Assembly: GCA_903923925.1 (NCBI GenBank)
Contig: CAIXZF010000042.1
Span: 1-64,000 of the forward strand
DNA length: 64,000 nucleotides
Direction: 5' to 3'
Source of the DNA: an uncultured Bacteroidales bacterium
Lineage (GTDB): Bacteria; Bacteroidota; Bacteroidia; Bacteroidales; CAIXZF01
The notes under the pieces are model-generated. The model was not told where the DNA came from. It saw only the letters and a program-made list of their open reading frames with translations, and made no database searches. Within the stretch, counting starts at the first letter, position 1, and each line of letters opens with the position of its first letter. Both the position numbers and the translations under genes were made by a program. Below, one piece after another: positions 347 to 47,028 of the stretch.

Positions 347-3300
347 TTATCTAAAAACAGTAAGGGATCCTGATTTTTCGAACCAGCTGTTACCCGAGCA
401 AATGGTAGTGTATCTGACAAGGTAAAAATAAACTCCTTCTGGCACAAAGTTATCGTTGTACTTGCCATCCCAGCTGCCATTTATCTCATTTGTTTTAAAG
501 AGAAGTTTGCCCCAACGATTAAAAATACGCATTTCAAGTGATGTAATAGAAGCTCCGCTTCCAAGGAAATAGTCATTTTTACCATCATTATTAGGTGTGA
601 AAACATTCGGAAATTCTATAGTTGACAAGCCAGATTCACCAGTCACGACAGTTGTGTCTCTCTGTGTACATTGTCCTTGAATTACTTCAAGAATATATGT
701 GCCGGCTTTTGTTATTTCGATAGCTGCACTGCTTTCACCACTTGACCATTGGTAATTGTCTGCTTCAATATTCGAAGTAATGTTAACATTAGCTTTCCCG
801 CATAAATCGAGCATTTCAGGTAAATTCAGAAGTCCGGGTTGTTTCACAATAATTGTGTCAGCAATCTGGCAAAGAGTATCATGAATCTGAACCCAATAAT
901 TTCCAGGATAAATTATATTCAGAACCCGGGTAGTATCACCTGTGCTCCATAAATAGAGACAGCCATTCATACCTGGATCAAGAAAAATTGTATCATTCGG
1001 GCAAACTAAAGTATCTGGGGGAAGGTTAGAAATAAGGCTATGCATATGCACAAATATAGAATCAGAACCAATACATCCAAGCGAGTCAACGGAAACATAA
1101 TACAATCCACTGTCGTTAAGTTGAATTTCCGGGCTTGTTGCTCCTGTAGACCATAAATGAGAAAGCGAAGGGTGCCCGGAGCTAAGAGTTAAACTATCTC
1201 CTTTACACAGGAATTTATCCAAACCTAATTCAACAGCAGGAATTGGAATCAGAGTTAATTGAATTGTGTCAGCTGCAAAACAGTTGTCTTTTTCAATGTT
1301 AACCCAATAAATACCTGATGTTATTACATTGATATTCTGAGTTGTATCGCCAGTATTCCATATATAGGAGCCTCCCGAAACACCTGCATTTAATGTAATA
1401 CTATCGGAAATACATAATGTAGAGTCGTTACCCAAAAAGGTACTAAAGCCTCCATTTACTGTTAAAGTCAAAGTTGCAGAATCACTTATTAAACAGGCAC
1501 TTGAATCGATTGCAAAGCATTGAACCTGATAAATACCAGGTATAGAATACGTATGATTAGGAACAGTTAAATTTGAAGTAGGACTGCCATCGCCAAAATC
1601 CCAGATGTAGGAAACTGCATTTGCGGAGTTGTTTGTAAATGAAACCTGAAAAGGAGCACAGCCAGTTATTCCAGGATTGACACCAATAATTGCTTTTGGC
1701 CCGGTTAATTGAAAATCAATTTTAAACACTGCCAGATCCCAGGGAACATTTGATGTGGACATGTATGCACCGGGAGTAGTGGGGAAGTTTTGACTTCCTT
1801 CACAAACAGCCTCATATACAATGCCTTTCTTGTCAAATCTGCTGGTGCCGCCATCTACATGTTCCCATGCATTTGGTGAACCGTAGTAAGTAGCATACAA
1901 CAGGGAAATTGCATCTTTATTTAGCACTATGAGGTAAAAATCCGATCCATCTGTTGTTGACTGTACAGCATTCGGGCTTACAGGGAAATTATCTGTTGAT
2001 CCCCAGCCAGCTGCGTAAACATTCTCGCAAATATCCACCAGAAATGCAGTAGGTGAGATAGAATTTGTAATACCGATATTGCCGAATACAGTCTGGTAAA
2101 TAATTGAATCAAGTTTTGTTGGTAGTTTGGTTATAAATTGAGTACACGCAATATTCCCGTAACACCCCGGAGTTATAGGTAAGTAACCTTCCGTTTGCCC
2201 ATAAACATAGATATTGTCTTCCGAATCGAGTTCAACAAAGAAAACTTCATCAAACGAAGTAGTGCCGTAATATGTGCTTGCCAATATAGCGGACAAGTCC
2301 GGCGAAAATCTGGTGATAAAACCGTCGTAAAACGGTCCCATGAAGTTTGCATTCAAGCAAGCAGGTGTTACGGGGAAATCGATACTCCCGGTTCCACCTC
2401 CGACAATGACTTCATTTAAACTATTAATTTTTATTCCATACGCGGCATCCAGGCTATTTCCTCCAAGAAAGGTAGAATTCACCATAGTTGTGAGATTGCT
2501 GTCTAACTTGAAAACAACTGCATCCTGCATTCCATTCATTGTTTGCCCAAATGTGCCAGCTGTGACAGGAAAATCTGCCGAATAAGTAAAAGAGGCAACC
2601 ATTGGGTTCTCTGCCGAATCAAGAATAATTTCACCCCTGTAAAGATCCCCGTAATTATGGGCAATCTGGTTTTGTCCGTCGACTTGAGTTCCTCCAACAT
2701 AGGTTGAACCGATTAAAGCAGAACCTGCTGCATTAAAGTGAGAAATAAAAATGTCGAAATCGCCCTTATTTTGAATTTGAAACGAATTGGATTTAACAGG
2801 AAAATTTAGCGAATTTGTTGAACCATAGACATATAGTTCATTTTTTGAATTTACAATTAAACTATGGGCAAAGTCGTTTAAGGAACCTCCAAGATAGGAT
2901 GCCCAGATTAATGCGCTGCCGGTTGGATTGAATTTACTTATAACTACATCATTCGTGCCTCCGCCAAACATAGTCATGAATGAGCCGATCGTTGTAGGAT
3001 AACCCTGTCCGAAACTCCTTCCACCTGTATAGATATTTCCATCCTGATCATAAGTGGCAGTATGCCCATACGTTACGGCGGCCAAAGTACCTGCATATGT
3101 AGAAGCCATAACAACAGGATCGATCACAAGTGGAAGGTCTTTCTTATAGCCCTGAGGAAAGTGAAAAGTAACATGTCCGTTCTGCAGCTGGTATTTACAG
3201 GCAACTGTTATTGTATCACCATTAATGATTTGATAAGCATAAGGTTTTTGTTCAATAATGTCGTTTACAGAATTAGAGATGATTAATTTTCCATTGTAAA

Positions 3301-3886
3301 GATTTAGGCTGGAGGCTCCCTCATAAGAAATATTTATAAGATCAGGGTCAGTATCAGGGCTTAAACAGTATTCGTATTTTAAATTCTGACTTTTGCTTCC
3401 GACGTTTAAATTAATACCAGGGTATAGATTACAATAAATGATCTCGTCAAAAAGAGGTACTTCTGATGCCCATTTTTGCTGATCATTGCCAATGAAATAA
3501 TTATAGTATTCCGGAAATTTATTTTTACCAACCACTTCCGCATTCTCATTTGCACCGTTGAAACGCATGTTTATGGCATGACATTTAATTAAATGATTTT
3601 CTGTATCAGTAATTTTTTGATGGTTTCCACAACTGTCGGGATGATGACATTTGCCAATCTCTAAGGGATCTGTGATTAAATATGTAAATGATGCTTTCTC
3701 AAGGAAAACAGCACCAAATGGCAATTCTGCCTTAAAAAGAACAGGTTTTTCCCATTGATTGCGATTAGCAATAAATTTTATTTTAGAATGTGAATCAGGT
3801 GGTTTTCTTAATGAATTACAATAAGTCTCTGAGAAACTCATCAAAGTACAGAAAAACAAATAAATAAGTATAATTCTGACTTTCAT
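347..3886 (-). CDS. Large secreted SBBP/PKD surface protein with type B T9SS sorting domain
   Basis: A 1179-residue exported protein. Residues 1 to about 23 form a signal peptide (MKVRIILIYLFFCTLMSFS). An N-terminal DUF7948-like domain follows (FIANRNQWEKPVLFKAELP), then a long region of SBBP-type beta-propeller repeats (recurrent pattern of STYLGG or ASYLGG, a D/N-rich turn, and NFPVTPG-like strands) to about residue 725. A PKD domain comes next (WDFGDGSPTS), then four Ig-like units with the signature LCxGDSLTL ... W.TG.T...I.....G.YWV. The last about 85 residues (FPNVFTPNNDGKND ... RWGKLLF ... GVYFYLVRY) are the gliding-motility/CHU_C type B sorting domain read by the type IX secretion system. 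The protein is probably displayed at the cell surface or released. The specific ligand is unknown. A decayed copy of its N terminus lies just downstream. Confidence 0.85.
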   Translation of the reverse strand: MKVRIILIYLFFCTLMSFSETYCNSLRKPPDSHSKIKFIANRNQWEKPVLFKAELPFGAVFLEKASFTYLITDPLEIGKCHHPDSCGNHQKITDTENHLIKCHAINMRFNGANENAEVVGKNKFPEYYNYFIGNDQQKWASEVPLFDEIIYCNLYPGINLNVGSKSQNLKYEYCLSPDTDPDLINISYEGASSLNLYNGKLIISNSVNDIIEQKPYAYQIINGDTITVACKYQLQNGHVTFHFPQGYKKDLPLVIDPVVMASTYAGTLAAVTYGHTATYDQDGNIYTGGRSFGQGYPTTIGSFMTMFGGGTNDVVISKFNPTGSALIWASYLGGSLNDFAHSLIVNSKNELYVYGSTNSLNFPVKSNSFQIQNKGDFDIFISHFNAAGSALIGSTYVGGTQVDGQNQIAHNYGDLYRGEIILDSAENPMVASFTYSADFPVTAGTFGQTMNGMQDAVVFKLDSNLTTMVNSTFLGGNSLDAAYGIKINSLNEVIVGGGTGSIDFPVTPACLNANFMGPFYDGFITRFSPDLSAILASTYYGTTSFDEVFFVELDSEDNIYVYGQTEGYLPITPGCYGNIACTQFITKLPTKLDSIIYQTVFGNIGITNSISPTAFLVDICENVYAAGWGSTDNFPVSPNAVQSTTDGSDFYLIVLNKDAISLLYATYYGSPNAWEHVDGGTSRFDKKGIVYEAVCEGSQNFPTTPGAYMSTSNVPWDLAVFKIDFQLTGPKAIIGVNPGITGCAPFQVSFTNNSANAVSYIWDFGDGSPTSNLTVPNHTYSIPGIYQVQCFAIDSSACLISDSATLTLTVNGGFSTFLGNDSTLCISDSITLNAGVSGGSYIWNTGDTTQNINVITSGIYWVNIEKDNCFAADTIQLTLIPIPAVELGLDKFLCKGDSLTLSSGHPSLSHLWSTGATSPEIQLNDSGLYYVSVDSLGCIGSDSIFVHMHSLISNLPPDTLVCPNDTIFLDPGMNGCLYLWSTGDTTRVLNIIYPGNYWVQIHDTLCQIADTIIVKQPGLLNLPEMLDLCGKANVNITSNIEADNYQWSSGESSAAIEITKAGTYILEVIQGQCTQRDTTVVTGESGLSTIEFPNVFTPNNDGKNDYFLGSGASITSLEMRIFNRWGKLLFKTNEINGSWDGKYNDNFVPEGVYFYLVRYTTICSGNSWFEKSGSLTVFR

Positions 3887-3955: not shown

Positions 3956-3985
3956 TTGCTTTTCGTAAAAAGTGCATTATATTTA
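3956..3985 (+). promoter_or_regulatory. Candidate Bacteroidota promoter for the alpha-2-macroglobulin operon
   Basis: TTG at 3956-3958 is followed after 19 bases by TATATTTA at 3978-3985, one base off the Bacteroidota -7 consensus TAnnTTTG. Transcription would start near 3992. That is downstream of the ATG at 3985 and supports ATG 4048 as the true start. Confidence 0.4.
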
Positions 3986-4047
3986 TGGTGGTGTTACGAG
4001 CCAAAATACTACGTTATTGGGTATGGGTAACTTTTAATTCACTTATT

Positions 4048-7000
4048 ATGAGAAAAGTAATCCTCATCCTCTTGGTATGCTGTAGCACCATTTGGACAAT
4101 TCATGCCCAGACGCTTTCCAATTCTCAACGGAACAGCTATTTTACGTATGTATACCGTTTAAGTGCCAAAGAAGTCAAAGGCCTTATTTCGTATAATTTT
4201 GATGAAAACCTTCTTTTAAACCGGCAGGCAATCGACTCTTTTAAAACAAATTCCAGTTACTGCAGAGATCTTCCGATTGGAAACTACCTATTTCTTAAGG
4301 CAGAAGGTGATAATCTTGAATACCAGCTTATTAATAAAAGTAATCTCAGAGCAGAGGCAACAGACAATGGCAGGGATCTGTTGATTTATGTAATAGAAAA
4401 TGAGAATGGTAAAGGAGTTCAGGATGCCGAAGTCTTTGTAAACAAAAAGGTGATTTGCTACGACAAAACACAGGGTGTATATCTTCTGACGAATTCAAAC
4501 AGGCAAGGAACTCTTACAATTATCAAGAATAGTGATACTGCATTTTATGAATTGCACAGGGAGATCTATAATTCAGGATTTCAAAGGGTTTTAAGGAAAA
4601 TCTCATATACTAAGCCAATCTATTATTTAGTTTACCCTTTCCGGACTCTTTATTGGGGAATCCGGCAATATGGATTAGGTTTTGGTATAACTCATCTTTT
4701 TAATAGTCATAGATATTCTGATGGGAATGAGGGATTTATTACTTTTAATAAACCAAAATATCTTCCTGGTGATACAGTAAAGTGGAAAGCCTTCATCCTT
4801 AATAAAAACCACAGGCCATCGAAAAATGAAATTATCGCAACAATTTGTGCCCGGTATTCGGGAAAGGAAAAAGAAATTGCCCGTTTATGGCCGCAAACTA
4901 AGGGTGCTTATGTGCATGAATTCGTTCTGAAGGATTCATTGAAAATTAACTCCTGGTATAATCTGCAGCTAAAAAAGAAGGCCGGTAAGAAAACATTGTT
5001 GCAAGGCGCTTTCTATCTTGAAGATTATCAGCTGGATGAGACTACTTATACATTGAATTCAACTGAAAACAAATACTATTTTGGTGATTCCCTGATATTT
5101 ATTGTAACCGGAAAAGACGCAAATGGCATGAATCTTCTCGATAGTGAGGTTGAAATGAAGGTAAATCCTGAAGAAGTTCATCAATATCTCGATACTAAAG
5201 TTTTTATCCCGGATAAAATCTGGTCTTCATCGAAAGTATTGGAGCCTTCTGGTGAGACCAGGTTTAGCATGCCTTCAAATAACCTTCCTTGTGCAAACTT
5301 AGATCTAACTGTGGTTGCTACTTTCCGTAACAGCAATAATGAGGTACATAAAGAAAGTAAGATCGTTAGTTTTATGGGTAGTAAACAAAGTATTAAAGCC
5401 AGGTTGGATTCAAATATGCTTGTTGCTGAATATCTGGAAAATGGAATTCCAGTTTCAGCAAGTGGGTGGTTGACTGCTTTTTATAAATCTGATACTCTGT
5501 TTAAAAGGGCAGTTAATTTTCCTTTAAGTGAACCTTTCATTGAATCAGTCACAAGATATTGTTTTACTGCTAAAACTGCTAAAACTGAATTGGAACTAGT
5601 TGAAAATAAATCACTTGTTGATATTAATTATTTTAGAACTAAGGATTCTCTGCATATTGAAGTATTAAATCCGAGGAAATTGGAATTCAGATATTGCATC
5701 TACAGGGGAAAAGCCGAAAAATATTTAGAAGGCATTGCCCGCGAATTGAAATGGACAAATCAGGATCCGGGCAAGGATTCATATTTTATTGAATTGAATT
5801 ATTTATGGAATGGAGAGGCTGAAAAAGAATCACGATCTATTCACTTTTATGAGAATAATCTGAATGTGGCTATTGATCAACCTGTAAATGTTTATCCTGG
5901 CGAAAAGGTGAAAGTTAAGGTTAAGGTAACTGATTTTCAATCAAATCCAGTTCAGAATGTTAACCTTACCGCCAACGCAGTAAATGCACAATTCAAAAAT
6001 ATTGAACCTCCTGATGTCCCTTATTTGGGTAAAGGACACAGAGAGCTTCCGGTTTTTAACCATTTTTTTATAGAAAGGCCAGAAGTTAAGCGTAGCTACC
6101 CTTTACGGAAGTCATGGGCTGAAAAGATGCATCTTTCCACAAATCCATATTACCGAATCCATTTTCCGGATAGCTTTATGAGTGTTTTGTATGATTCTCT
6201 AAAATCGACTTCTGCTCAGTTCGCACCTTATGTCTTTAATAATGGAAGAAGGCAAACAGTTTATCTTGTGGTTCTTGACAAGGAACCTCTGTATTATTAC
6301 GATTTATCTCCAACTGGCCCGTATTCCTTTAAAGGTGAAGCTGGATTTCATACAATCAGACTTCGTTTGTGGGATAGGGAAATAAGAATCGACAGTGTTT
6401 TGTTAAAAGTTGGGCAAAAACTTGAACTTTCTCTTGAATTATCAAAAATCCCTGCTTCAATGGTGATCATGAAAGTAAGATGGCAGTTGGATCAGACGGA
6501 TGTTGACAAGTTAAACCGTAAAGTGATGTTTTTGAATGATAATTTCAGGAATCATTTTGCTTACCTATGGCAGAAAGACAATGTTGTTTACTTAAGCGGA
6601 CATACAAGCTGGAATTACCTTGCTGGATTCTTTGATTATGACAGCATTCATTTTGCACTTAAAGACGGATTTCAGACCGATTTTTTCTTTGAACCAGGTT
6701 ACGAGTATACCATTGATAATAAACTGATTAAGATGCGTTCTAAAGACCATAACCTGATTTCAGGCAGATTGTCCTATATATCATTGTTTCCGCCATTTGG
6801 AGAAAAAGCATTAGAAATCTCTGATATTCAGTTTAAATCAAAACCCCAGAAACAAAATTATCTGTATGAGATAAATCCAAAATCAACTACCAGGGGGAAT
6901 GGTACCTTTTTACTTGATTATTCGGGTGATAGTCTGGTTACAAGAGTGGTAATATATTCTTCAAAAGGTGATTTTAATCCGAGGTTTTACAAAGGCAGGC

Positions 7001-9723
7001 CATCGAAGTATTATGACCTGCCTCCCGGATATTACAATTTCCTTTTTCAAACTGAAAGTCTTAACTATCTTCAACTGGATTCTGTTTGTATTATCGCAAA
7101 TGGATTGCTTTTCCAAAGGCTAAGTGATTTGAAAAGCAATACTTTACAAAAATCCACCAGAGATTCCCTTTTGAAATATGAATCCAATTGGACGAAAGAA
7201 ATTCCAATTAAGCAAGTCGGTGTTGAAAAAACATATAGTTCAAACTATACAGGTGGAGGTAAGGGTGCATTAAAAGGAAAAGTGCTGGATAAAGTAACCA
7301 AGGAGCCTATCCCTTTTGCAAATATTATACTTGAAAGTGGAGAAGATATAATGGGCGGAACCACTTCCGATTTTGATGGGAATTTTACTATTAAGCCAAT
7401 TACGCCGGGAAAATATGACCTGAAGGTTACTTTTCTTGGGTATAATACTGTTATAGTAACTGGTATTGTTGTTAATCTTGACAAAATTACTTTTTTTGAT
7501 GTTGAAATGGAATCGACCACAGCAAGTCTCGACGCTGTTTATTGCATAGCTTATAAAGTTCCATTGATTTCGCGTGATAGAACCAGTACAAGTGGATTTG
7601 TGAGTATCTCTGAAATTGCAAAAATGCCGAATCGTTCGGCTGATGCTATAGCTACAACAGTTGGAGGTGTATTTTCTGCAGATGGGGAAAGAGGGTCGGT
7701 GAGAGGGCAGCGATCGGAAGGTACTGTGATGTATATTGATGGAATCAGAGTGCGCGGATCATACAGTTTGCCAGATGAAAATTCTTGGTCTGCAGAAACT
7801 CCCGAGATACCGTTTAGTTCAATTCGTTCGAATTTTAATGATTGTGGGTATTGGGTGCCAAATCTGATCACTGATAAAAACGGCGAGGCCACTTTCGATG
7901 TAAAGTTTCCTGATAATATCACCACATGGAAATCGTGGACATTGGCGATCAATGATAAAAAACAATCAGGTTATGGATATACTGAGACTAAGTCCAGGAA
8001 AAGCCTTGTGGCCAATCTTGCATTGCCCCGCTTCCTGATACAAGGCGACAACTGCAATATCGTCGGGAAATCTTTAAATTATACTCTTAAACCACAGCAA
8101 ATTAAAACAGAATTCAGACTTAATAAACAGCTGCTGAAAACAAGAGAACTGTCACTGGATAAAGTGTATATCGATACTTTAATGATCAGCCCTGGCAATC
8201 AGGATTCTGTGTCGTTACAGTATTCATTGTCCAGACCTGACGGATATTACGACGGAGAAGAGCGGAAAATTTCTGTATTTAAAGTTGGAGTGGAGGAGGC
8301 AAAGGGTGAGTTTCATGTATTAAATAATGATACAACTATCACAATTGACTTAGCTGATGATGCCAAAGAGATTTCGGTTTATGCCCAGGATAACATTTTG
8401 GAAACCATGCTGAAAGAATTGGATTATTTGAAAGACTATCCGTATTGGTGCATGGAGCAGACAGCGTCAAAGTTAAAGGCTTACTTGCTGGAACGAAAAA
8501 TTGCCTCCCGGCTCGGCCAGAAATTCAAACATGAAGGTGAAATCCGTAAACTTGTAACAAAACTCGAAAGAGGCCAAAATGATAATGGATCCTGGGGCTG
8601 GTGGGATCATTCTAATCCCAATATTTGGATGTCAGCTTACGTAATGGAAGTATTGTCAGCGGCGAATGCAATGGGAATCAGGATTTCTTTCCTTGAAAAA
8701 GGAGCTGAGTTTTTGCTCAACCACCGGAATCAGGCTTCAAAGGATGAATTGTTGAAAGTCCTAAATACGCTTATGTTGATAAAGGCTGAATTCCCAGTTG
8801 CCAACGACATTATAAAACTTCAGAGAGACAGCTTGAATATATTTCAGAAACTTCAGGTTCTCAGGCTTAAGCAAATGACAGGTTTACAGGTAGATATCAA
8901 GGAAGTGCTCAGCATGAAAAAGCAGTCTGTTTTTGGCAGTTATTACTGGGGAGAAGAATCCGACCCCTGGTTTAATAACATTACTAATAGCACCCTGATG
9001 GCTTACCATATCATTGAAGCCTCAGACAGCCTCCATCCCGCACTGCAAGCCATTGGAAATTATTTCCTGGAATTGAAATCTGCTAAAAAGTGGCATAATA
9101 CTATCATTACAGCTGAAATACTTTCAACAATATTACCGCTCCAACTAAAGAATACAACTAAGATAAAATCAACGATCTCCGTCGAGTTATCTGGTGCTGT
9201 AAATCAATCGTTTACAAAATTCCCCATGTCTTTTTCATTCGAAACACAAAGTTCAAAGTTGATTGTTCATAAATCAGGAAATGGTCCTTTGTTTATTACA
9301 GCATTTTCGAAAAGCTGGAACTCCCATCCTGAAAAGGTTGATAGCATTTTTGATGTCAAATCCTGGTTTGAAGTTAACCATGTTCGTATCGATTCACTAA
9401 AGGCTGGAGAAGAATCAGAACTTGTTGTGGAGGTAAACATCATGAAAGCAGCAGATTACTGTATGCTTGAGGTGCCGATTCCAGCTGGTTGTTCATATGG
9501 GGATAATGCAAACTCAGGGAATTATGAAGAAGTTCACAGGGAATATTTCAAACATAAAACTTCCATTTTTTGCGAACATGTAAGAATGGGAAAGCATATA
9601 TACAGAATAAAACTGCAGCCAAGGTTCTCAGGAATTTACACTTTAAATCCGGTAAAATTTGAACAAATGTATTTCCCTATTATCTTTGGGCGTGATGAAA
9701 TAAAGAAATCGAGAATTTATTGA
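4048..9723 (+). CDS. Alpha-2-macroglobulin family protein with inserted CarboxypepD_reg and TonB-plug-like segment
   Basis: A 1891-residue envelope protein. An upstream ATG at 3985 is open, but ATG 4048 begins a clean signal peptide (MRKVILILLVCCSTIWTIHA). An MG2-like strand appears near residues 225-250 (KPKYLPGDTVKWKAF). Residues about 1069-1154 are a CarboxypepD_reg-like domain (GKVLDKVTKEPIPFANI). Residues about 1170-1245 resemble a TonB-receptor plug (VSISEIAKMPNRSADAI, then RGQRSEGTVMYIDGIRVRG). The A2M domain follows (GYWVPNLITDKNGEATF, FPDNITTWKSW). The thioester motif C-M-E-Q is intact at residues 1468-1471 (nt 8449-8460) in the context YPYWCMEQTASKL, followed by an alpha/alpha-toroid. 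Bacterial A2M proteins are thought to trap proteases. Here the plug-like insert sits where a bait region would be expected. It is probably co-transcribed with the DUF5686 gene 10 bases downstream. Confidence 0.85.
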   Translation: MRKVILILLVCCSTIWTIHAQTLSNSQRNSYFTYVYRLSAKEVKGLISYNFDENLLLNRQAIDSFKTNSSYCRDLPIGNYLFLKAEGDNLEYQLINKSNLRAEATDNGRDLLIYVIENENGKGVQDAEVFVNKKVICYDKTQGVYLLTNSNRQGTLTIIKNSDTAFYELHREIYNSGFQRVLRKISYTKPIYYLVYPFRTLYWGIRQYGLGFGITHLFNSHRYSDGNEGFITFNKPKYLPGDTVKWKAFILNKNHRPSKNEIIATICARYSGKEKEIARLWPQTKGAYVHEFVLKDSLKINSWYNLQLKKKAGKKTLLQGAFYLEDYQLDETTYTLNSTENKYYFGDSLIFIVTGKDANGMNLLDSEVEMKVNPEEVHQYLDTKVFIPDKIWSSSKVLEPSGETRFSMPSNNLPCANLDLTVVATFRNSNNEVHKESKIVSFMGSKQSIKARLDSNMLVAEYLENGIPVSASGWLTAFYKSDTLFKRAVNFPLSEPFIESVTRYCFTAKTAKTELELVENKSLVDINYFRTKDSLHIEVLNPRKLEFRYCIYRGKAEKYLEGIARELKWTNQDPGKDSYFIELNYLWNGEAEKESRSIHFYENNLNVAIDQPVNVYPGEKVKVKVKVTDFQSNPVQNVNLTANAVNAQFKNIEPPDVPYLGKGHRELPVFNHFFIERPEVKRSYPLRKSWAEKMHLSTNPYYRIHFPDSFMSVLYDSLKSTSAQFAPYVFNNGRRQTVYLVVLDKEPLYYYDLSPTGPYSFKGEAGFHTIRLRLWDREIRIDSVLLKVGQKLELSLELSKIPASMVIMKVRWQLDQTDVDKLNRKVMFLNDNFRNHFAYLWQKDNVVYLSGHTSWNYLAGFFDYDSIHFALKDGFQTDFFFEPGYEYTIDNKLIKMRSKDHNLISGRLSYISLFPPFGEKALEISDIQFKSKPQKQNYLYEINPKSTTRGNGTFLLDYSGDSLVTRVVIYSSKGDFNPRFYKGRPSKYYDLPPGYYNFLFQTESLNYLQLDSVCIIANGLLFQRLSDLKSNTLQKSTRDSLLKYESNWTKEIPIKQVGVEKTYSSNYTGGGKGALKGKVLDKVTKEPIPFANIILESGEDIMGGTTSDFDGNFTIKPITPGKYDLKVTFLGYNTVIVTGIVVNLDKITFFDVEMESTTASLDAVYCIAYKVPLISRDRTSTSGFVSISEIAKMPNRSADAIATTVGGVFSADGERGSVRGQRSEGTVMYIDGIRVRGSYSLPDENSWSAETPEIPFSSIRSNFNDCGYWVPNLITDKNGEATFDVKFPDNITTWKSWTLAINDKKQSGYGYTETKSRKSLVANLALPRFLIQGDNCNIVGKSLNYTLKPQQIKTEFRLNKQLLKTRELSLDKVYIDTLMISPGNQDSVSLQYSLSRPDGYYDGEERKISVFKVGVEEAKGEFHVLNNDTTITIDLADDAKEISVYAQDNILETMLKELDYLKDYPYWCMEQTASKLKAYLLERKIASRLGQKFKHEGEIRKLVTKLERGQNDNGSWGWWDHSNPNIWMSAYVMEVLSAANAMGIRISFLEKGAEFLLNHRNQASKDELLKVLNTLMLIKAEFPVANDIIKLQRDSLNIFQKLQVLRLKQMTGLQVDIKEVLSMKKQSVFGSYYWGEESDPWFNNITNSTLMAYHIIEASDSLHPALQAIGNYFLELKSAKKWHNTIITAEILSTILPLQLKNTTKIKSTISVELSGAVNQSFTKFPMSFSFETQSSKLIVHKSGNGPLFITAFSKSWNSHPEKVDSIFDVKSWFEVNHVRIDSLKAGEESELVVEVNIMKAADYCMLEVPIPAGCSYGDNANSGNYEEVHREYFKHKTSIFCEHVRMGKHIYRIKLQPRFSGIYTLNPVKFEQMYFPIIFGRDEIKKSRIY

Positions 9724-9733
9724 ATGCTACCCA

Positions 9734-12376
9734 ATGAAAAATAGTGCTTACGTGCTTCTGATATTCCTTTTTGGATTAATACTGCCAGTTTCTGGACAAA
9801 ATTTTGTAGTCTCAGGTAAAGTCTCCGACACCCACGGCAAGCCTATTCCGTTTTCTACTGTATTTGTTAAGGAGATTTCCAAAGGCTTGTCGACAGGTGA
9901 AGATGGAGAATTCTCGCTAACACTGCCCCCTGGCGATTATTCAATAAAATTTCAATCGATTGGCTATAAGCTGGAAAATAAGCAAGTTAAGCTTTTGGAT
10001 AAAAATATCAATCTAAAAATAGTACTTCATGTCCTTTCCTATGATCTTAAAGAAGTTGTAATCTCCGGTAAGGATAATCCGGCAAATCGCATAATGCGTT
10101 CTGCTATTGCCAGGGGAGCTTACTACAAAAAGCTGCTTAAATCATACAATGCCGAAGTATATGTAAAATCGGGGCAGAAACTGGAGAAACTCTCTGACCT
10201 GGTTAAATTTATGGCAGGAAAAGATAACGAGATGCCCAAAGTGGGGGAGTTGTATTTTGCAGAGTCCTACAATAAGGTGGATTATCGGTCACCAGATCAA
10301 TATACACAAACAGTTCTCAGAGCTCAATCATCTAAGAATCCAATGGGAGGGAGCGAAGTACCGGGTATTGGTTTTCTGACTACAGATTTCTTTCAGCCAA
10401 TGGTAATGGATGCACCTTCTCCGTTGGGACGAAATGCATTTTCAAACTACGACTTTAAACTTGATGGAATCTCAAATTCCGACAGTCAGGCAGTGTACAA
10501 AATTAAGGTTGTTCCAAAACGCCCTGGTATATTTTTCAAAGGATATATTTATATTGAAAACAGGAATTACCTTCTTAAAACACTTGATCTTGATATGGAG
10601 GCGGCTTTTATGATCTACAATGTTCGAATGGATTATGAAGAAATGAAAGGTGCAGTTATTCTTCCAGGGAGCTTTTATATGAAGTTTAAGTTTAGCATGT
10701 TTGGTAATGATTTTACTGGAAACACCAGTGGATCAATTGATTATAAGAAAATTGTTTTGGATTCAACTTTCCGGTTTCCAGCTGCTTCAGTATTGTATGG
10801 TATTGACCAGAGCGACAGTGCAGCAAAGGCAATTAAGTCGGCCCGTGAACTGAAACTTCAGCAAGATCTCGACAAACTCCTTTCCAAACCTGAAATGAAT
10901 ATGAACGACATGAATAAATTCATGCGGATCATGAAAAAGCAGGAAAAGGAACAGAAAAAGGATAGTACTGTAAGCCTGGAGATTAAAGAAAGGGTAAAAG
11001 TAAAGAAGGATAGTCTTTATAGTCAGCATGATACCACCTGGTGGAAAGCAAAACGACCTGTTCCATTATCCAATGAGGAGGCAAAATCGAAGGATAAGAT
11101 TGATTCCGCTTTTAGTTCAAAAACTAAGCAGAATGGTAAAATGAAATCGGATACTTCGAAAAAGGATCGTCCTTTTGCCTGGTATAAATATCCTCAAAAA
11201 TTATTTTTAGGAGGAGTTCTGTGGGAGGATTCGCTTTGGACATTCAGAACGAACGGCATGTTATTAAGCGCTTCTTATTTTTCCCCGGTCGACGGATTTA
11301 CTTTGGCAGATCATTTTGTTTTCAGTGGGAAATTTAAGCATTCCGGCAATGCTGCTGGGATTTCAATAACACCAATGTATGCCTTTGATCGCAAGGATTT
11401 AATGACTGATGCAAAAATATGGATGAATTATCTGAAACGCAGACCATCTGCTGTAAGTCTTAGATATTTCTCCATGTCAGCAGATTTTAACAATACAAAC
11501 CCGGAGGATCGAACTGTTAATAGCCTGACTGCCTTGTTTTTACATCAGAATCACCTCAAACAGATTCATGATGAAGGGTTTAGCTTCAGAAATGTATCGG
11601 AAATCGTGAATGGTTTCGTTTTCGGCGCTGGTTTCGATGTGCACAAGTACATGCAATTGCAAAATAACAGTACTTATTCGTTCAAATACGGGGATAGTCT
11701 TTATCCGGTAAATATTCCCGACAATCCATTATTCAAACAGATCCAGGGTGAAAGTCTCACGCATACTGTGCTTTACGGCTCTCTGCAATATACTTTCAGA
11801 AATAAATACAGGATGAAGGAAGGACGGAAAATCAATGCCGGATCTGAATATCCAGTTGTTAAACTCGAATATTTTCAGGGTATTCCTGCTTTTTCATCCA
11901 GGTATACTGAATTCACACAATTTGTTTTTACTGTGAACCAGGCAATCGACATGGGAATATTTACAGAATTCCGATATTCTGTAAAGGCTGGTTTTTCTGA
12001 GAATATTTCGGGACAGCAATTCTCAGAGTTTTACCATCCAGCGGTTAATGAAATCCCGTTTTCTTTTCATCCAGCAACAAATTCGTATTACCTGATCCCC
12101 AATTATACTTATAGCACACCCGAAGCTTTTATCGATGCACATGCACAATATGAATCAACTTGCATCCTGCTCAAACGTCTGCCATTTTTAAGTAAAAAGC
12201 TGATGACTGAGAAAATTGGGATTTCCTATTTTCAAAGCTCAGTTCTGCATAATTATAACGAATTATTTTATGGTTTTGGAAAGATCTATTTTGGAGGAGA
12301 AGCATTGCTAGTGGTTGGTTTCAGGAATGCTGTTTACACAAATACAGGTTTAATGCTGAAGTTTAGTTTTAATTAG
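9734..12376 (+). CDS. DUF5686/CarboxypepD_reg-like outer-membrane protein
   Basis: An 880-residue protein with a signal peptide (MKNSAYVLLIFLFGLILPVSGQ). A CarboxypepD_reg-like beta-sandwich follows at about residues 25-110 (SGKVSDTHGKPIPFSTVFVK ... YSIKFQSIGYK). The body is of DUF5686 type, starting with the family-typical ANRIMRSAIARGAYYKK. A lysine-rich low-complexity linker near residues 360-480 precedes a C-terminal part rich in alternating aromatic strands, ending in the aromatic-terminated strand LMLKFSFN, as in outer-membrane beta-barrels. The family is widespread in Bacteroidota with no established biochemical role. It starts 10 bases after the alpha-2-macroglobulin gene, so a shared transcript and a joint envelope role are likely. 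Confidence 0.8.
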   Translation: MKNSAYVLLIFLFGLILPVSGQNFVVSGKVSDTHGKPIPFSTVFVKEISKGLSTGEDGEFSLTLPPGDYSIKFQSIGYKLENKQVKLLDKNINLKIVLHVLSYDLKEVVISGKDNPANRIMRSAIARGAYYKKLLKSYNAEVYVKSGQKLEKLSDLVKFMAGKDNEMPKVGELYFAESYNKVDYRSPDQYTQTVLRAQSSKNPMGGSEVPGIGFLTTDFFQPMVMDAPSPLGRNAFSNYDFKLDGISNSDSQAVYKIKVVPKRPGIFFKGYIYIENRNYLLKTLDLDMEAAFMIYNVRMDYEEMKGAVILPGSFYMKFKFSMFGNDFTGNTSGSIDYKKIVLDSTFRFPAASVLYGIDQSDSAAKAIKSARELKLQQDLDKLLSKPEMNMNDMNKFMRIMKKQEKEQKKDSTVSLEIKERVKVKKDSLYSQHDTTWWKAKRPVPLSNEEAKSKDKIDSAFSSKTKQNGKMKSDTSKKDRPFAWYKYPQKLFLGGVLWEDSLWTFRTNGMLLSASYFSPVDGFTLADHFVFSGKFKHSGNAAGISITPMYAFDRKDLMTDAKIWMNYLKRRPSAVSLRYFSMSADFNNTNPEDRTVNSLTALFLHQNHLKQIHDEGFSFRNVSEIVNGFVFGAGFDVHKYMQLQNNSTYSFKYGDSLYPVNIPDNPLFKQIQGESLTHTVLYGSLQYTFRNKYRMKEGRKINAGSEYPVVKLEYFQGIPAFSSRYTEFTQFVFTVNQAIDMGIFTEFRYSVKAGFSENISGQQFSEFYHPAVNEIPFSFHPATNSYYLIPNYTYSTPEAFIDAHAQYESTCILLKRLPFLSKKLMTEKIGISYFQSSVLHNYNELFYGFGKIYFGGEALLVVGFRNAVYTNTGLMLKFSFN

Positions 12377-12620: not shown

Positions 12621-15587
12621 TTAGCCGTTCCTCGGATCCCGTTGTATCGGCAACTTCGCCATCTTCATCACATTAATGCTCGGAAATCCAAACTCTTCTA
12701 CCACCATGCCAAGGATGAGGTAAACGCCATGCCCCCGAAACGGGTACTTCTTCACCGAATCCGGGAAATGAACAGTGTCGAAAAATTCCCCTTCATGGTC
12801 GAAGAAAGCTCCGAAGTGCATCCATTCCTTCTTCACCGTCCGCACATATTTTATAGATATCAGTTCGCCCACCAGCCGAACGGTCTTGCCAATATTATTC
12901 ACCAGGTCACCGGCCATGATCTCCCCGCGAAAGCTGGTAATCAGCATGTCGAAGTACTTCATGCTCACCGGAAAGCCAAGCAACTCAACTTCGTCATACG
13001 CATCCTCCAGCGGGTTGTACTCCAGTTCCGGTAAGATGAAAGGCTTAATGGAAGTATGAAAGAGAAGTAGGGCAGAAGGAGGATGCTGTGAAGTCTGTGC
13101 CGGTTTTTCTTTCGATTTGCCCACCAGATGTGCCTCCCACAGCAACTGTGCTTTGCTTCGCCCGGTGAACCGCAAGGCTCCGATCCGGACAAGGATGATA
13201 AGCTGCTCCATCGCAGGATTCATGCGGTCAATGAAGTCCTGAAGCCCGGCAAAAGGACCGTTTTGTAACCGCTCCTCCGGAATGGCCTTTCCGCTATCGC
13301 GTTCCAGATTGGCAATATGAATGAAGCCCATATAGATATTATCCCCGCTGATACAGGTGGTGTAAAGGCTGTTGTTCACGCAGGGCAGCAGGATGTTGGC
13401 TCCGCAGCGCCTTGCTTCGTTGAAATACACCCAGCCTGGATAAAATCCCCCGAAGTTGTTGATCACCGCCACCATAAACTCCCTGGGATAGTGTGCCTTA
13501 AGCCATAAACTCTGAAAACTCTCCACAGCATAAGATGCTGAATGTGCCTTGGAAAAGGAATATCCCGCAAACGATTCTATCTGCCGCCATACCTCTTTTG
13601 TGATCGAATCCGGATAACCATAGCTCTTGCAATTGGTGAAGAATTTCTCCACAATACGCTCCAGCTCTTTTTTCGACCGGTGTTTCCCACTCATGGCCCT
13701 GCGTAACACATCGGCATCTCCCAGGTCGAGGCCGGCAAAATGATGACAAATCTTCAGCACATCTTCCTGATAGACCATTACACCATAAGTTTCCCCGAGT
13801 TGCTGCTCCATTACCGGATGTATATAGCTGAATCCCTTTGGGTTATGAAATCGCTGTATATATTCCCGCATCATCCCCGATTTAGCCACTCCCGGACGAA
13901 TAATAGAACTCGCAGCCACAAGGCTTAAGTAGTTGTCGCAGCGTAATTTGGTGAGTAATCCCCGCATCGCAGGGCTTTCGATGTAGAAGCAACCATTGGT
14001 TTCTGCCCGTTTTAGCTGATCCTTTACTTTGGGGTCGTGTTTGAACTTTTCCACCTGGTGTACATCCACGCTGATGCCCTGATTCTGCCGGATAATATCG
14101 ACAGCCTCTTTAATATGCCCTATTCCACGTTGACTGAGAATGTCAAGTTTCTCAAAACCAATGTTTTCGGCCACGTACATATCGAACTGGGTGGTGGGGA
14201 AGCCCTTGGGTGGCAGATCCATGGCCACATAGCTGGTGATGGGCTCCTCACTGATGAGGATACCACCGGCGTGGATACTGCGGATATTCGGGAAATCCTG
14301 CATTCTCAGCCCGATCTGCTTGATCTTTGTTGCAATGCTGTTTGCATTCGTGGGTTTGTCGGGTTCCTTCAGAAGGTCGTCGATTTCCTGTTTTGGCAGT
14401 CCGTGAACCTTGCCAAGTTCCCGGATAATAGATTTTCCTTTAAAGGTAGACATGGCTCCCAGCAGCGCAGTATGCTTATGTCCGTAACGTTTGAAGATAT
14501 AATCCTGCACCTCGTCGCGCTCTTTCCAGCTGTAGTCGATGTCGAAGTCGGGCGGACTGGTACGTCTGGGGTTGAGGAAACGTTCGAAATACAGGTCGAG
14601 TTCTATAGGGTCCACATCTGTTATTTTCAGGCAGTATGCCACGATACTGTTGGCTCCGCTGCCTCTTCCCACGTGGTAAAACCCACGGCTCATGGAATAA
14701 CGGATAATGTCCCAGGTGATGAGAAAGTAGGCAGAGAATCCCAGCCTGTCGATAATCTCAAGTTCATGATTGACGCGGGCTGTAGCTGTCTTGTTGTACT
14801 TTCCGTAGCGGTAAGCCAGGCCATCCATTGCCAGCTTCTCAAGCAATTCCTTGTCGTCGTAGCGATTGCCGGTGAAGGTCTTTCGATTCTTGATACTACG
14901 GAAGTCCATAGCGATGCCGCATTCATCCAGCAACCTCTCGCTGTTACGGATGAGCTGCGGGTAAAGCTCGTAATAGGGCAGGAGCTTGTCGGGTGGAATC
15001 ATCCATTGTTGGGGAGAGCCTGCCTGTGCGGGAAGTAGTTTGCTGATGAGGCAGTTGTTATCGATGGCGCGTAGGTTAAGATGAAGATCATAATCCTCGC
15101 GTTTGGCAAAGCTTACAGGCTGGCGAATGAGCAGTTTTGAAGGATGCTTGTTCCATCGCAGCGACATCAGTTTCGAAACCTCTGCCGGACTGATCCCCAC
15201 GAATTCCTGGTCGAGCAAGCGGTTGAGCGGCTTGCCCCCCAAAGGGTAAACAGTATAAACATCCGACAGAACAGCTGCTTCAGGAGGGTATTCTGTTTCG
15301 TTGAGGTTGTGGCGGGTGATAAATTCGTTGATTGCGCGAAATCCCTCATTATTTCTGGCAATGAGCGTATACAAATGCGTATTGCCGTTACGGATATCAG
15401 CTCCGGCAATGGGTTTGATACGATGTTCGCCACATTCGCGGATAAAGTCCATCATCCCGGTACTGTTGTTGATATCCGTAAGGACCAGCGCAGATACACC
15501 CCTGGCAGCTGCCTCTTCCACAAGCTGCTCCACAGAAAGGGTTCCGTAGCGGAGGCTATAGTATGAATGACAATTGAGGTACATCAA
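12621..15587 (-). CDS. DNA polymerase III alpha-family polymerase (DnaE2-like, SOS cassette)
   Basis: A 988-residue C-family DNA polymerase, shorter than replicative DnaE (about 1160). The order is: N-terminal PHP domain (LNCHSYYSLRYG, LVLTDINN), polymerase core with GRGSGANS, the catalytic acidic motif PDFDIDY and the later FEKLDIL, then HAGGILIS, the finger motif YQEDVLKICHHFAG ... DVLRRAMSGK, FAGYSFSKAHSASYA, and a C-terminal OB-fold (RLVGELISIKYV). The catalytic Asp residues are present. PHP metal ligands are lost: canonical LHxHS reads LNCHS and TDHGN reads TDINN, so proofreading by PHP is unlikely. Its start overlaps the stop of the upstream Pol IV-like gene as ATGA, implying translational coupling. 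With the adjacent LexA-like regulator this suggests a damage-inducible translesion polymerase rather than the main replicase. GC content is visibly higher than in the flanks. Confidence 0.85.
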   Translation of the reverse strand: MMYLNCHSYYSLRYGTLSVEQLVEEAAARGVSALVLTDINNSTGMMDFIRECGEHRIKPIAGADIRNGNTHLYTLIARNNEGFRAINEFITRHNLNETEYPPEAAVLSDVYTVYPLGGKPLNRLLDQEFVGISPAEVSKLMSLRWNKHPSKLLIRQPVSFAKREDYDLHLNLRAIDNNCLISKLLPAQAGSPQQWMIPPDKLLPYYELYPQLIRNSERLLDECGIAMDFRSIKNRKTFTGNRYDDKELLEKLAMDGLAYRYGKYNKTATARVNHELEIIDRLGFSAYFLITWDIIRYSMSRGFYHVGRGSGANSIVAYCLKITDVDPIELDLYFERFLNPRRTSPPDFDIDYSWKERDEVQDYIFKRYGHKHTALLGAMSTFKGKSIIRELGKVHGLPKQEIDDLLKEPDKPTNANSIATKIKQIGLRMQDFPNIRSIHAGGILISEEPITSYVAMDLPPKGFPTTQFDMYVAENIGFEKLDILSQRGIGHIKEAVDIIRQNQGISVDVHQVEKFKHDPKVKDQLKRAETNGCFYIESPAMRGLLTKLRCDNYLSLVAASSIIRPGVAKSGMMREYIQRFHNPKGFSYIHPVMEQQLGETYGVMVYQEDVLKICHHFAGLDLGDADVLRRAMSGKHRSKKELERIVEKFFTNCKSYGYPDSITKEVWRQIESFAGYSFSKAHSASYAVESFQSLWLKAHYPREFMVAVINNFGGFYPGWVYFNEARRCGANILLPCVNNSLYTTCISGDNIYMGFIHIANLERDSGKAIPEERLQNGPFAGLQDFIDRMNPAMEQLIILVRIGALRFTGRSKAQLLWEAHLVGKSKEKPAQTSQHPPSALLLFHTSIKPFILPELEYNPLEDAYDEVELLGFPVSMKYFDMLITSFRGEIMAGDLVNNIGKTVRLVGELISIKYVRTVKKEWMHFGAFFDHEGEFFDTVHFPDSVKKYPFRGHGVYLILGMVVEEFGFPSINVMKMAKLPIQRDPRNG

Positions 15588-16735
15588 ATTGTAGTAATTG
15601 CGCGGTGTACTGCATCCGATCCGTATCGTATTCTTAGCCTGTCAAGCGCCTGGTATAGCCTTATCAGCTGTGGCGATTCCTCGAAAAGATCTAGCTGCTG
15701 TACTCCATGCACCAGCCCGCTCAGCCTCACGCCAATCAGCCTGATAAGCATCCGGCGCTGGTAAAGCCGCTCAAACAGATCTTTTACCACAGCAAGTATA
15801 ACATGGTCGAGCGAAGTATATGCAATCTGTTTCTGCAGGGTGTGGGTGTCGAAGTTGGAATACCGGATCTTAACAGTTATACATGAAGTGAGTTTCTGCT
15901 TTTTACGTAGCTGAAAACAAACTTTTTCCACCATTCCGGTAAGAATTTGCCGCATAAAGCTGATATCTATGGTGTCCTGTTCAAAGGTGTTTTCTGTGCC
16001 AATCGATAGCCGCTCGTGATACGCTATTACCGGCGTATTATCGATGCCATTGGCTTTCTTCCAGATCATATTCCCATTCTTTCCCAACACCCTTTCCATC
16101 ATTTCCATGGGGATCTGACTGAGGGTATGTATATTGGATATTCCCATAGAACGAAGGGTCTGGTAGGTCTTGTCGCCTATCCCCGGAATTTTTTTAATTG
16201 ACAAAGGATCAAGGAAGGGTTTTACCCTTTCTCCGGTAATTTCCAGCAGCCCGTTAGGCTTAGCCTCTCCGGTAGCAATTTTAGAAACAGTTTTATTGGG
16301 AGAAAGTCCGAATGAAATCGGCAATCCTGTATTGTCGATGATGGATTTTCTCAGCTCTTGTGTCCATTTCAGGCAGCCGAAGAAACGGTCCATGCCGGTA
16401 ATGTCAATGTAATGCTCATCGATTGAGGCCTTCTCAAACAGAGGTGCCCGTTCCGCAACAATCTCCGTGACCATCTTTGAGTATTTGCTGTACATCTCCA
16501 TGTCGCCCCTTACGATAATAGCATCGCGGCAGAGTGTGCGTGCCAGCTTCATCGGCATACCCGAACTTGCCCCGAATTGCCGCGCTTCATAACTGCAACT
16601 TGAGACTACTCCGCGGTCGGAGGTGCCTCCGATGATTACAGGCTTTCCTATCAATTTGCTGTTTAGCAGCCGTTCCACCGATACAAAAAATGTATCAAGA
16701 TCCAGGTGAATAACGTGCCGGTTCGCGGTGTCCAT
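15584..16735 (-). CDS. Y-family DNA polymerase (Pol IV/DinB-like)
   Basis: A 383-residue translesion polymerase. The N-terminal palm carries the metal-binding HLDLDTFFVSVE. The catalytic SIDEHYIDI contains the Asp-Glu pair of SIDEAYLD in DinB, so the enzyme should be active, unlike ImuB-type relatives that lose these residues. YEARQFGASSGMP and the helix-hairpin-helix IKKIPGIGDKTYQTL are typical. The little-finger domain follows, and near the C terminus QLDLF (residues 347-351) is a textbook beta-clamp binding pentapeptide. The stop codon overlaps the start of the DnaE-family gene by 4 bases. The gene diverges from the HTH-S24 regulator across 138 bases. Known biology of such cassettes is SOS-induced error-prone synthesis. 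Regulation here is inferred from context. Confidence 0.88.
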   Translation of the reverse strand: MDTANRHVIHLDLDTFFVSVERLLNSKLIGKPVIIGGTSDRGVVSSCSYEARQFGASSGMPMKLARTLCRDAIIVRGDMEMYSKYSKMVTEIVAERAPLFEKASIDEHYIDITGMDRFFGCLKWTQELRKSIIDNTGLPISFGLSPNKTVSKIATGEAKPNGLLEITGERVKPFLDPLSIKKIPGIGDKTYQTLRSMGISNIHTLSQIPMEMMERVLGKNGNMIWKKANGIDNTPVIAYHERLSIGTENTFEQDTIDISFMRQILTGMVEKVCFQLRKKQKLTSCITVKIRYSNFDTHTLQKQIAYTSLDHVILAVVKDLFERLYQRRMLIRLIGVRLSGLVHGVQQLDLFEESPQLIRLYQALDRLRIRYGSDAVHRAITTI

Positions 16736-16777
16736 GTTGTTTTATTAATTAATGGTGTAAAAAAAATCAAATATTTC

Positions 16778-16847
16778 TTGACTTCTCTGGTATGATAATA
16801 TATCTTTGACGAAAAATTAATCAAAAATATGATTACAATTTAATCAT
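16778..16847. promoter_or_regulatory. Divergent promoter with three-half-site operator of the SOS cassette
   Basis: On the plus strand, TTG (16778-16780), 20 bases, then TATCTTTG (16801-16808) is an exact Bacteroidota promoter for the regulator gene, with initiation expected near 16815. On the minus strand TATTTTTG (16829-16822) is a -7 element facing the polymerase genes, but no good -33 was found. Three alternating half-sites overlap or follow these: TTAATCA (16817-16823), ATGATTA (16829-16835) and TAATCAT (16841-16847). The last two form a perfect 7-5-7 inverted repeat, and the first two form a TAATCA-N6-TGATTA repeat. The position suits repression of both directions by the HTH-S24 protein. 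Binding itself is inferred. Confidence 0.6.
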
Positions 16848-16873
16848 TTCTCGAATATAAAAACAAGAAAAAA

Positions 16874-17674
16874 ATGTTTTTTTCATCAAATATTAAAATC
16901 CTGCGCAAGCGCCGGGGCCGTACACAGGATGAATTATCTTCTGCCCTGGATTTAAAGCGTTCTACCTTAAGTGGCTATGAGAATGGTATTGCTCAACCGG
17001 ATATCGCTACCCTTATGGCTTTCTCGAAATACTATACTATTTCTATTGATACCCTTGTTAAAGAAGATCTTTCGCAACTTCCTGAAAGCCAGTTGTCGCA
17101 GCTTGAGAGAGGTTTCGATATCTTTATTACCGGCAGCGATTTGCGCGTACTTGCCACTACAATTGATAACGAAAACAATGAAAATGTAGAACTCGTCAGC
17201 GAAAAGGCAAAAGCAGGATACCGCACAGGTTACGCCGATCCGGAATTTATAAGCGTGTTACCTACATTTTATCTCCCTTTTCTTAACAAAGAACGGAAAT
17301 ACAGAGCTTTTCAGGTTAGTGGCGATTCAATGCTCCCCATTCCCGATGGTGCCTGGGTTGTTGGAGAGTATCTGCAGAACTGGAAACTGCTGCGAAACAA
17401 ACATGCCTACATCGTCCTCACCATCGACGACGGTATTGTTTTTAAAGTGGTGGAAAACCTGATCGGGAATTCAGGGAAACTCTTGCTCCATTCGCTGAAT
17501 ACTTTGTACGAACCGTATGATGTCCTGGTGAAGGATGTAAGAGAAATCTGGAAGTTTGTTCATTACATAAGCAACGAAATACCGGAACCTAATCCCAAAG
17601 AAGATGGGGTACACAAAGCACTTCAACAGCTTCAGAAAGAGATGAAGGTGATTCAGACCCGGCTGCAGTTATAG
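16874..17674 (+). CDS. LexA-like transcriptional repressor (XRE HTH + S24 autoprotease)
   Basis: A 266-residue regulator. Residues about 6-65 form an XRE-type helix-turn-helix (LRKRRGRTQDELSSAL, STLSGYENG). After a linker, KAKAGY places an Ala114-Gly115 pair at the usual self-cleavage position. The S24 peptidase fold then shows Ser152 in QVSGDSMLPI and Lys191 in IVFKVVE, the LexA/UmuD-type Ser-Lys dyad at expected spacing. A short amphipathic C-terminal helix (ALQQLQKEMKVIQTRLQ) may extend dimerisation. By family knowledge, RecA-ssDNA would stimulate cleavage and derepress target genes. The divergent polymerase pair and its own promoter are the obvious targets. It is not a canonical LexA because its DNA-binding domain is XRE rather than winged helix. 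Confidence 0.85.
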   Translation: MFFSSNIKILRKRRGRTQDELSSALDLKRSTLSGYENGIAQPDIATLMAFSKYYTISIDTLVKEDLSQLPESQLSQLERGFDIFITGSDLRVLATTIDNENNENVELVSEKAKAGYRTGYADPEFISVLPTFYLPFLNKERKYRAFQVSGDSMLPIPDGAWVVGEYLQNWKLLRNKHAYIVLTIDDGIVFKVVENLIGNSGKLLLHSLNTLYEPYDVLVKDVREIWKFVHYISNEIPEPNPKEDGVHKALQQLQKEMKVIQTRLQL

Positions 17675-46866: not shown

Positions 46867-47028
46867 AGCTATCAGAATATTCGACAAAGTTACAAACACT
46901 CATTATACAAATATGCACTGCTGCATTGACTTGTCAACAAGGAACTTTTAATGAAGACAGCATATATGACTTTATAGTTGCTTAATAAAATCCACAAGCT
47001 TTAATAAAAATGGAAATATTGTGTTTTT

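Follow-up and report, generated by a model that had tools for sequence, protein, structure and literature searches.

Domain Layout of the Gene

The window considered here, i.e., the whole stretch of 64,000 nucleotides from contig CAIXZF010000042.1 of an uncultured Bacteroidales bacterium (GenBank assembly GCA_903923925.1), harbors a gene (positions 3985–9723, forward strand) encoding a thioester-type alpha-2-macroglobulin (A2M) of 1912 amino acids (aa). The N-terminal part of a TonB-dependent receptor (TBDR) is embedded in this protein, very probably in the slot of the protease bait. All features given below for this gene lie on the same strand; genomes, contigs, and loci bear the working labels G, C, and L, G000 being the genome of the window itself.

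The gene is a single open reading frame (ORF), and its likely start at residue 22 (position 4048) was judged by eye from a signal-peptide-like stretch (4048–4110), which ends with Ala-Gln and is devoid of a lipobox (inspection by eye plus a regular-expression search). The product is best read as a secreted, probably periplasmic, thioester A2M. An MG2 domain (residues 250–333; 4732–4983) was recognized by Pfam below the cut-off (26.1 bits vs. 32.8, E 1.1e-5), and residues 53–471 align with an ordinary A2M of the same genome with a probability of 97% (hhalign). The probable first half of the bait-bearing macroglobulin (MG) domain (residues 627–672; 5863–6000) was delimited from a weak hhalign match and, for the remainder, by eye. 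It is followed by a region of unknown fold of ca. 420 residues (673–1090; 6001–7254), which returned no Pfam family match and is alignable in three members of the family described below.

The receptor piece itself includes an NTE (CarboxypepD_reg-like) domain of the TBDR type (residues 1094–1178; 7264–7518; Pfam and homology), a diverged TonB-box position (residues 1182–1190; 7528–7554), and the strongly conserved first half of a plug (residues 1210–1263; 7612–7773). A linker (7777–7821) leads to the second half of the bait-bearing MG domain and the start of the next one (7822–8106), a stretch holding the Pfam A2M domain (residues 1289–1374, 55.5 bits vs. a cut-off of 21). Further downstream, there are the matched part of the thioester domain (8389–8727; TED, residues 1469–1581, 28.5 bits vs. 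a cut-off of 22) and the bMG10 domain (residues 1802–1898; 9388–9678; 41.2 bits). The thioester motif CMEQ (residues 1489–1492; 8449–8460) is intact, as the first-pass annotation of this DNA had it.

The Insert Is the Start of a TonB-Dependent Receptor

The first-pass annotation had pointed to a receptor-type CarboxypepD_reg domain and a plug-like stretch inside the A2M, and its quoted motifs are found in the translation. The insert spans ca. 7264–7779, and its residues 1094–1265 correspond to the start of a TBDR, comprising its NTE domain, the linker with the TonB box, and the initial part of the plug. In the profile search proposed at that stage, CarboxypepD_reg (57 bits, residues 1096–1175) and CarbopepD_reg_2 (53.5 bits) pass their cut-offs; Plug remains below its cut-off of 23.9, with 15 bits in the full protein (E 0.036, profile positions 12–70 of 107) and 18.2 bits (E 0.0036) when the 308-aa segment is searched alone. 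The sub-threshold Plug match, indecisive alone, gives way to direct homology, which settles the TBDR identity of the insert: residues 1093–1265 share 71% identity with a TBDR of 1230 aa from the window's own genome (G000:C95), in which NTE and Plug both exceed the Pfam cut-offs, and 70% with a TBDR of the family-mate G001. In the same search, the A2M core shares 34–37% with other A2Ms; L071, a later find and the closest A2M, reaches 45% over the core.

The homologous part comprises the NTE domain, the TonB-box linker, and the plug as far as SYSLP; the remaining plug and the barrel are missing, no barrel family is present among the Pfam matches up to E 1, and the A2M domains come directly after the insert. 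Thus, the plug-like stretch, taken initially for the normal N-terminus of a SusC-type receptor, is truncated at mid-plug, and the SusC-type origin does not hold for the window: the insert clusters with the own-genome TBDR and that of G001 (SH-aLRT 97) within a larger receptor clade, so the donor, as placed by the tree, is a non-SusC receptor family. An ORF of 1099–1272 aa matching the insert segment at 41% or more was present in 24 of the 59 genomes searched, indicating that this receptor family is widespread in the order. A scan of genome contigs gave two weak matches, both confined to the insert part. A recent conversion of the gene by the own TBDR was rejected on the basis of the fourfold sites, 26 of 63 of which are identical between the insert and this receptor, and of the synonymous divergence (dS) of 1.3 in the plug block.

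Probable Placement of the Insert in the Bait Slot

The location of the insert where a bait belongs, claimed in the first-pass annotation, is well supported at the downstream border, where the insert stops at the strand that comes after the bait of an ordinary A2M. The alignment of a 24-member family profile with an ordinary A2M of the same genome (L039, as a two-sequence profile) starts at residue 1278 of the window protein, equal to residue 1262 of L039, just behind the stretch read as the bait of the latter. The stretch of human A2M matched by the profile (profile positions 1317–1399, chain residues 747–830) corresponds to the part downstream of the insert, and the human bait presumably ends shortly before it; the stretch matched in C5 also lies downstream of the insert. 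The upstream border is weakly supported: residues 565–657 align with the pre-bait MG stretch of five ordinary A2Ms with a probability of 26% (E 7e-4, hhalign). If this border is right, the bait slot comprises ca. 600 residues, i.e., the ca. 420 unassigned ones and then the receptor piece. Overall, it is considered very probable that the receptor-derived insert sits in the bait slot of an A2M.

A Family of A2Ms with a Variable Insert

The search for related A2Ms with a C-terminal profile (E 1e-40) returned family members from the order (27 of 393 genomes) and from the class (35 of 395 genomes), the counts being lower bounds since at most three candidates per genome were scored initially. From the 64 distinct A2M places found, five at contig ends were left out (the site may be present in three of their ORFs), a stray ORF of L102 was removed, and the set examined comprised 59 members including that of the window; L042 is fragmentary, and L103 was included as far as its stop.

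In the 300 aa before the MG half, CarboxypepD_reg was detected in 53 of the 59 members and Plug in 25 (E 0.01). A model built from 27 plugs of the window's own genome scored 8 bits or more in 31 members, each time at the bait site. The plug signal in these 31 members is of several receptor types. The SusC/RagA model matches 35 members, although the NTE domain alone can suffice for such a match, and the SusC signature was found in 20. The CxEQ motif is kept in 58 of the 59 members and in all 31 with a plug signal. A strict TonB-box pattern occurs in 22 of the 59 inserts vs. 0.6 in shuffled sequences. The inserts differ in extent and composition, e.g., a nearly complete plug is kept in L041, and that of L077 resembles, by eye, a chimera of two plug types. 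The window's genome encodes another A2M of this family (L037:4231–10026, on G000:C35), in which nothing but an NTE domain below threshold and a decayed, plug-like remnant is left at the site.

Outside the family, the plug model reached 8 bits in 3 of 50 ordinary Bacteroidota A2Ms (46.8 bits in L152) and 5 bits in 5 of 50, all matches being within ca. 100 aa preceding the MG half; it matched none of 20 A2Ms of a third type, and fivefold shuffles gave zero matches at 5 bits. A plug fragment was also seen by eye in the bait of L044, which is not among these 50. The strict TonB-box pattern was found in ordinary A2Ms 8 times in 5,500 aa of baits vs. once in 42,588 aa elsewhere (Fisher 2e-7, an optimistic value because the pattern was composed after some baits had been inspected) and in the third type once in 2,200 aa of baits (L174) vs. 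none in 13,459 aa elsewhere.

Repeated Capture from Different Receptors

The plug tree (30 A2M plugs and the N-termini of 57 TBDRs) and the tree of the A2M cores are of a quick type and contain some long branches. Eleven label changes are needed to place the A2M plugs on the former, at least four of them forced by starred branches, and a single ancient insertion, i.e., one clade of all A2M plugs, was rejected (p-AU 9e-34). Most of one A2M clade carries SusC-type plugs; plugs of other types occur in some of the half of the tree that contains the window protein, and many members there lack a clear plug. In the core tree, the window protein has L071 and L074 as its closest relatives (support 88, not starred), but their plugs fall outside the starred receptor clade containing the plug of the window; hence, at least one of these lines captured or replaced its insert after the split. 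These trees show that capture took place more than once and from different receptor types.

A donor within the own genome as a general rule was not supported by comparisons of inserts with own and foreign receptors in G003, G431, and G186 with its congener. Among the matches listed, the full-length insert of G003 reaches no more than 46% identity with own-genome receptors and 51% with a foreign one, and for its plug part alone own and foreign receptors both reach 64%. The plug piece in an ordinary A2M of G431 is matched about equally by two A2M inserts (49 and 53%) and by receptors. In G186, a receptor-like ORF from the same genome, truncated at a contig end, is closer to the insert (59%) than is the A2M insert of a congener (52%), which fits a swap; the insert of this congener has no nearer receptor, with 52% to the A2M and 48–53% to receptors.

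Constraint on the Insert and Its Possible Functions

The most economical reading of the insert, based on its site, the intact CxEQ, and its receptor identity, is that of a bait mimicking the receptors of the cell itself and trapping the proteases that attack them; the probability of this reading is estimated at roughly 0.4. In the E. coli A2M, cleavage of the disordered bait changes the structure of the protein, so that the thioester (CXEQ) is exposed and captures the protease (PMC4498604; also PMC5764988). Half a plug without the barrel and the remaining strands would be expected to be loose and cleavable. A protease attacking the receptors of the cell in the periplasm would cut the look-alike in the A2M, and the cut would trigger the change in the A2M and the binding of the protease through the thioester.

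The pattern of substitutions in the window protein bears on this reading. In the comparison with positions invariant among other TBDRs (a single lineage, with dN and dS taken against the own TBDR), none of the 26 invariant positions of the 54-residue half-plug has changed, and its nonsynonymous divergence (dN) is 0.065 at a dS of 1.3 (NG86) or 0.049 at a dS of 2.1 (YN00); dS against the G001 receptor is saturated. The TonB-box stretch has changed at one of two invariant positions, the linker at three of nine, and the NTE domain at 3 of 19, single TBDRs showing in the latter domain 0 or 1 changes at 19–20 positions. Judged from these substitutions, the half-plug of the window protein is strongly constrained while its TonB-box/linker stretch has drifted.

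This contrast is important for the main rival explanation, according to which the NTE domain and the TonB box let TonB-ExbBD grip and pull the A2M (as well as the DUF4139 and YfbK-type proteins discussed below), positioning, opening, or resetting it, with the plug remnant as a mere passenger. It draws on Bt1763 of B. thetaiotaomicron, where the NTE (PF13715) precedes a flexible TonB box required for function, and the authors consider that the NTE may give TonB specificity (PMC7782687). The occurrence of the TonB-box pattern in the family inserts and its enrichment in the baits of ordinary A2Ms agree with such a handle. At the same time, the box and linker of the window protein are altered at 4 of 11 invariant positions compared with 0 of 26 in the half-plug, and 11 of the 59 A2M inserts terminate ahead of the box, retaining the NTE domain only. 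We regard a TonB handle as unlikely, and the drifted box and linker of the window protein beside its unchanged half-plug make this explanation better suited to the DUF4139 proteins. The three roles named at first pass, i.e., bait, anchor to TonB, and decoy, are thereby narrowed toward bait or decoy, which the constrained half-plug and the drifted box favor over an anchor without dividing them from each other.

The conserved block is also the core of the plug, and L041 and some other members keep a nearly complete plug, as would be expected if the half plug acted in trans, docking the A2M to a receptor barrel or to the receptor-assembly machinery. The plug of the window protein lacks its C-terminal part, however, and many members have no plug at all, so we consider docking very improbable.

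Turnover among relatives was assessed in 12 sister pairs over fixed-length windows including the linker. In all 12 pairs, conservation is lower in the plug/linker segment than in the C-terminal core, as baits would be expected to behave; the segment also falls below the NTE domain in eight pairs and below the N-terminal MG stretch in eight. The congeners L058 and L061 are 81–84% identical outside the segment and 53% within it, with SusC plug motifs in both.

Receptor Pieces in Other Proteins

The same pieces were encountered outside A2Ms. BLAST against receptors gave matches to their N-terminal part in 46 of the 59 family A2Ms, 6 of the 50 ordinary ones, none of the 20 of the third type, and 21 of 50 DUF4139 proteins; matches centered on the barrel were limited to three DUF4139 proteins, their alignments beginning inside the plug. 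In 12 family A2Ms, some of the alignments extend beyond the bait site. The DUF4139 set combines 30 loci from one search with 20 further ones, 15 of which were picked for length: the receptor N-terminus was found above 60 bits in five and weakly in two of the first 30, and receptor pieces were present in all 15 length-picked loci and in none of the other five. The DUF4139/DUF4140 proteins carrying NTE, TonB-box, and/or plug pieces inside DUF4139 are those of L253, L236, L239, L269, L273, L283, L288, L294, and L295–L309. The one from the window's own genome (L253, G000:C92) has an NTE domain within, and those of two congeners have a plug and no NTE match. In support of a TonB handle, all 16 NTE-bearing inserts of this type reach beyond the TonB-box position (model position 106–112, hand-counted); against it, the inserts of L302, L306, L307, L308, L236, and L239 are plug-only, with no TonB box in the match.

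Two YfbK-type vWA proteins (L254:2058–4232 and L262:760–2658) start with a TBDR NTE domain, followed in L254 by a sub-threshold plug match of 20.9 bits. A stand-alone protein of 234 aa (L263:1172–1873) combines an NTE-like domain scoring below threshold with a plug match over the full length of the profile and has no barrel. Within the window, the gene located 10 bases behind the A2M gene (9734–12376, forward strand) encodes a DUF5686 protein with an N-terminal CarboxypepD_reg-like domain.

We know of no protease-trap role for DUF4139 and YfbK-type vWA proteins. The presence of the same pieces in them implies that the captures need not concern the bait, which weakens the reading of the insert as a receptor-mimicking bait and keeps alive the explanation that disordered loops pick up pieces of the much-repeated TBDR N-termini by chance recombination, with little function. 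The raw material is abundant, with 27 plug matches in the window's genome; the pieces are truncated, chimeric (L077, see above), or seemingly in scrambled order (L299, a DUF4139 protein, judged by eye); and the capture sites include DUF4139 loops, vWA N-termini, and, once, a region near the N-terminus of an A2M. The last case is L068, the A2M of G151, in which residues 237–290 form an extra SusC-type plug-tail piece 50% identical to a receptor. The lower conservation of the segment relative to the core in all 12 pairs would also be expected of a filler. The constraint on the half-plug of the window protein argues against it, and so do the absence of receptor matches from the third-type A2Ms and the concentration of BLAST matches on the N-terminal part of the receptors although barrel sequence accounts for 33,068 of the 51,205 aa (65%) of the database, a control that is imperfect because barrels are less conserved. 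Chance filling is considered unlikely, about as much as the TonB handle.

Several further findings speak against the receptor-mimicking bait. The receptor N-terminus model had no match at 8 bits in 6 of the 59 members, and the 11 inserts holding the NTE domain only, as well as the piece in L068 lying far from the bait site, are not readily accommodated; the faint upstream alignment has the same bearing. The gap between the segment and the core is 3 points or less in 3 of the 12 pairs; in four pairs the segment surpasses the NTE domain in conservation, and in four the N-terminal MG stretch. The single-sequence structure prediction of the window protein reached a pLDDT of 32, and the model was not used. 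Finally, no protease targeting TBDR plugs in these bacteria is known to us, and no search for one was made.

A more far-reaching version of the receptor-mimicking bait, which is doubtful as it stands, would make the A2Ms of Bacteroidota an integrated-decoy defence: their baits would be rebuilt repeatedly from pieces of the own TBDRs (TonB box, plug) and sprung by periplasmic attackers of the receptors, and the same exchangeable pieces would arm DUF4139 and YfbK-type vWA proteins as sensors or lures.

Gene Neighborhood

No conserved gene neighborhood was found around the family A2Ms: no neighbor is common to more than 7 of the 59 loci, several of which are cut by contig ends. Elsewhere in the window, two large proteins with a CHU_C-type secretion signal domain are encoded, one with DUF7948, PKD, and SBBP (347–3886) and the other with IgGFc_binding and Ig_7 (40651–46899). 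A 988-aa polymerase of the DNA polymerase III alpha type is encoded at 12621–15587; its size and the neighboring ORFs at 15584–17674 might, we assume, fit an error-prone polymerase set.

Relation to Known Systems and Significance

The window protein shares with type I A2Ms (E. coli YfhM, S. enterica A2M) the A2M domain, the thioester domain with CxEQ, and, probably, the position of the bait, and the thioester domain of YfhM is matched by the family profile (E 6e-22). It differs from them in having a TBDR N-terminus and ca. 420 unassigned residues in the slot and in lacking a lipobox by the regular-expression search. With TBDRs (SusC/RagA and the own 1230-aa family), it has in common the NTE domain, the TonB-box linker, and the first part of the plug; the solved SusC structure 8aa4 is matched by the family profile (E 2e-44). 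Unlike a receptor, the piece has a truncated plug, is barrel-less, and is embedded in another protein. In complement C3/C4/C5, the anaphylatoxin is an extra domain set in the MG6 bait site of the A2M fold, so the placement is alike, but the inserted domain is unrelated. Among the records listed by open-access literature searches, there was no paper on plug pieces in A2M baits or on barrel-less TBDR N-termini as a module; the combination of CarboxypepD_reg with A2M in Bacteroidota may, we presume, already appear in domain listings.

Barrel-less TBDR N-termini appear as an exchangeable module in three unrelated families (A2M, DUF4139, and YfbK-type vWA proteins), which matters for annotation and for the use of TonB boxes and plugs outside transport. 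If it is true that the baits copy the receptors of the cell, the sequence of a bait would name the protected target, and the class of the attacking protease would become searchable.

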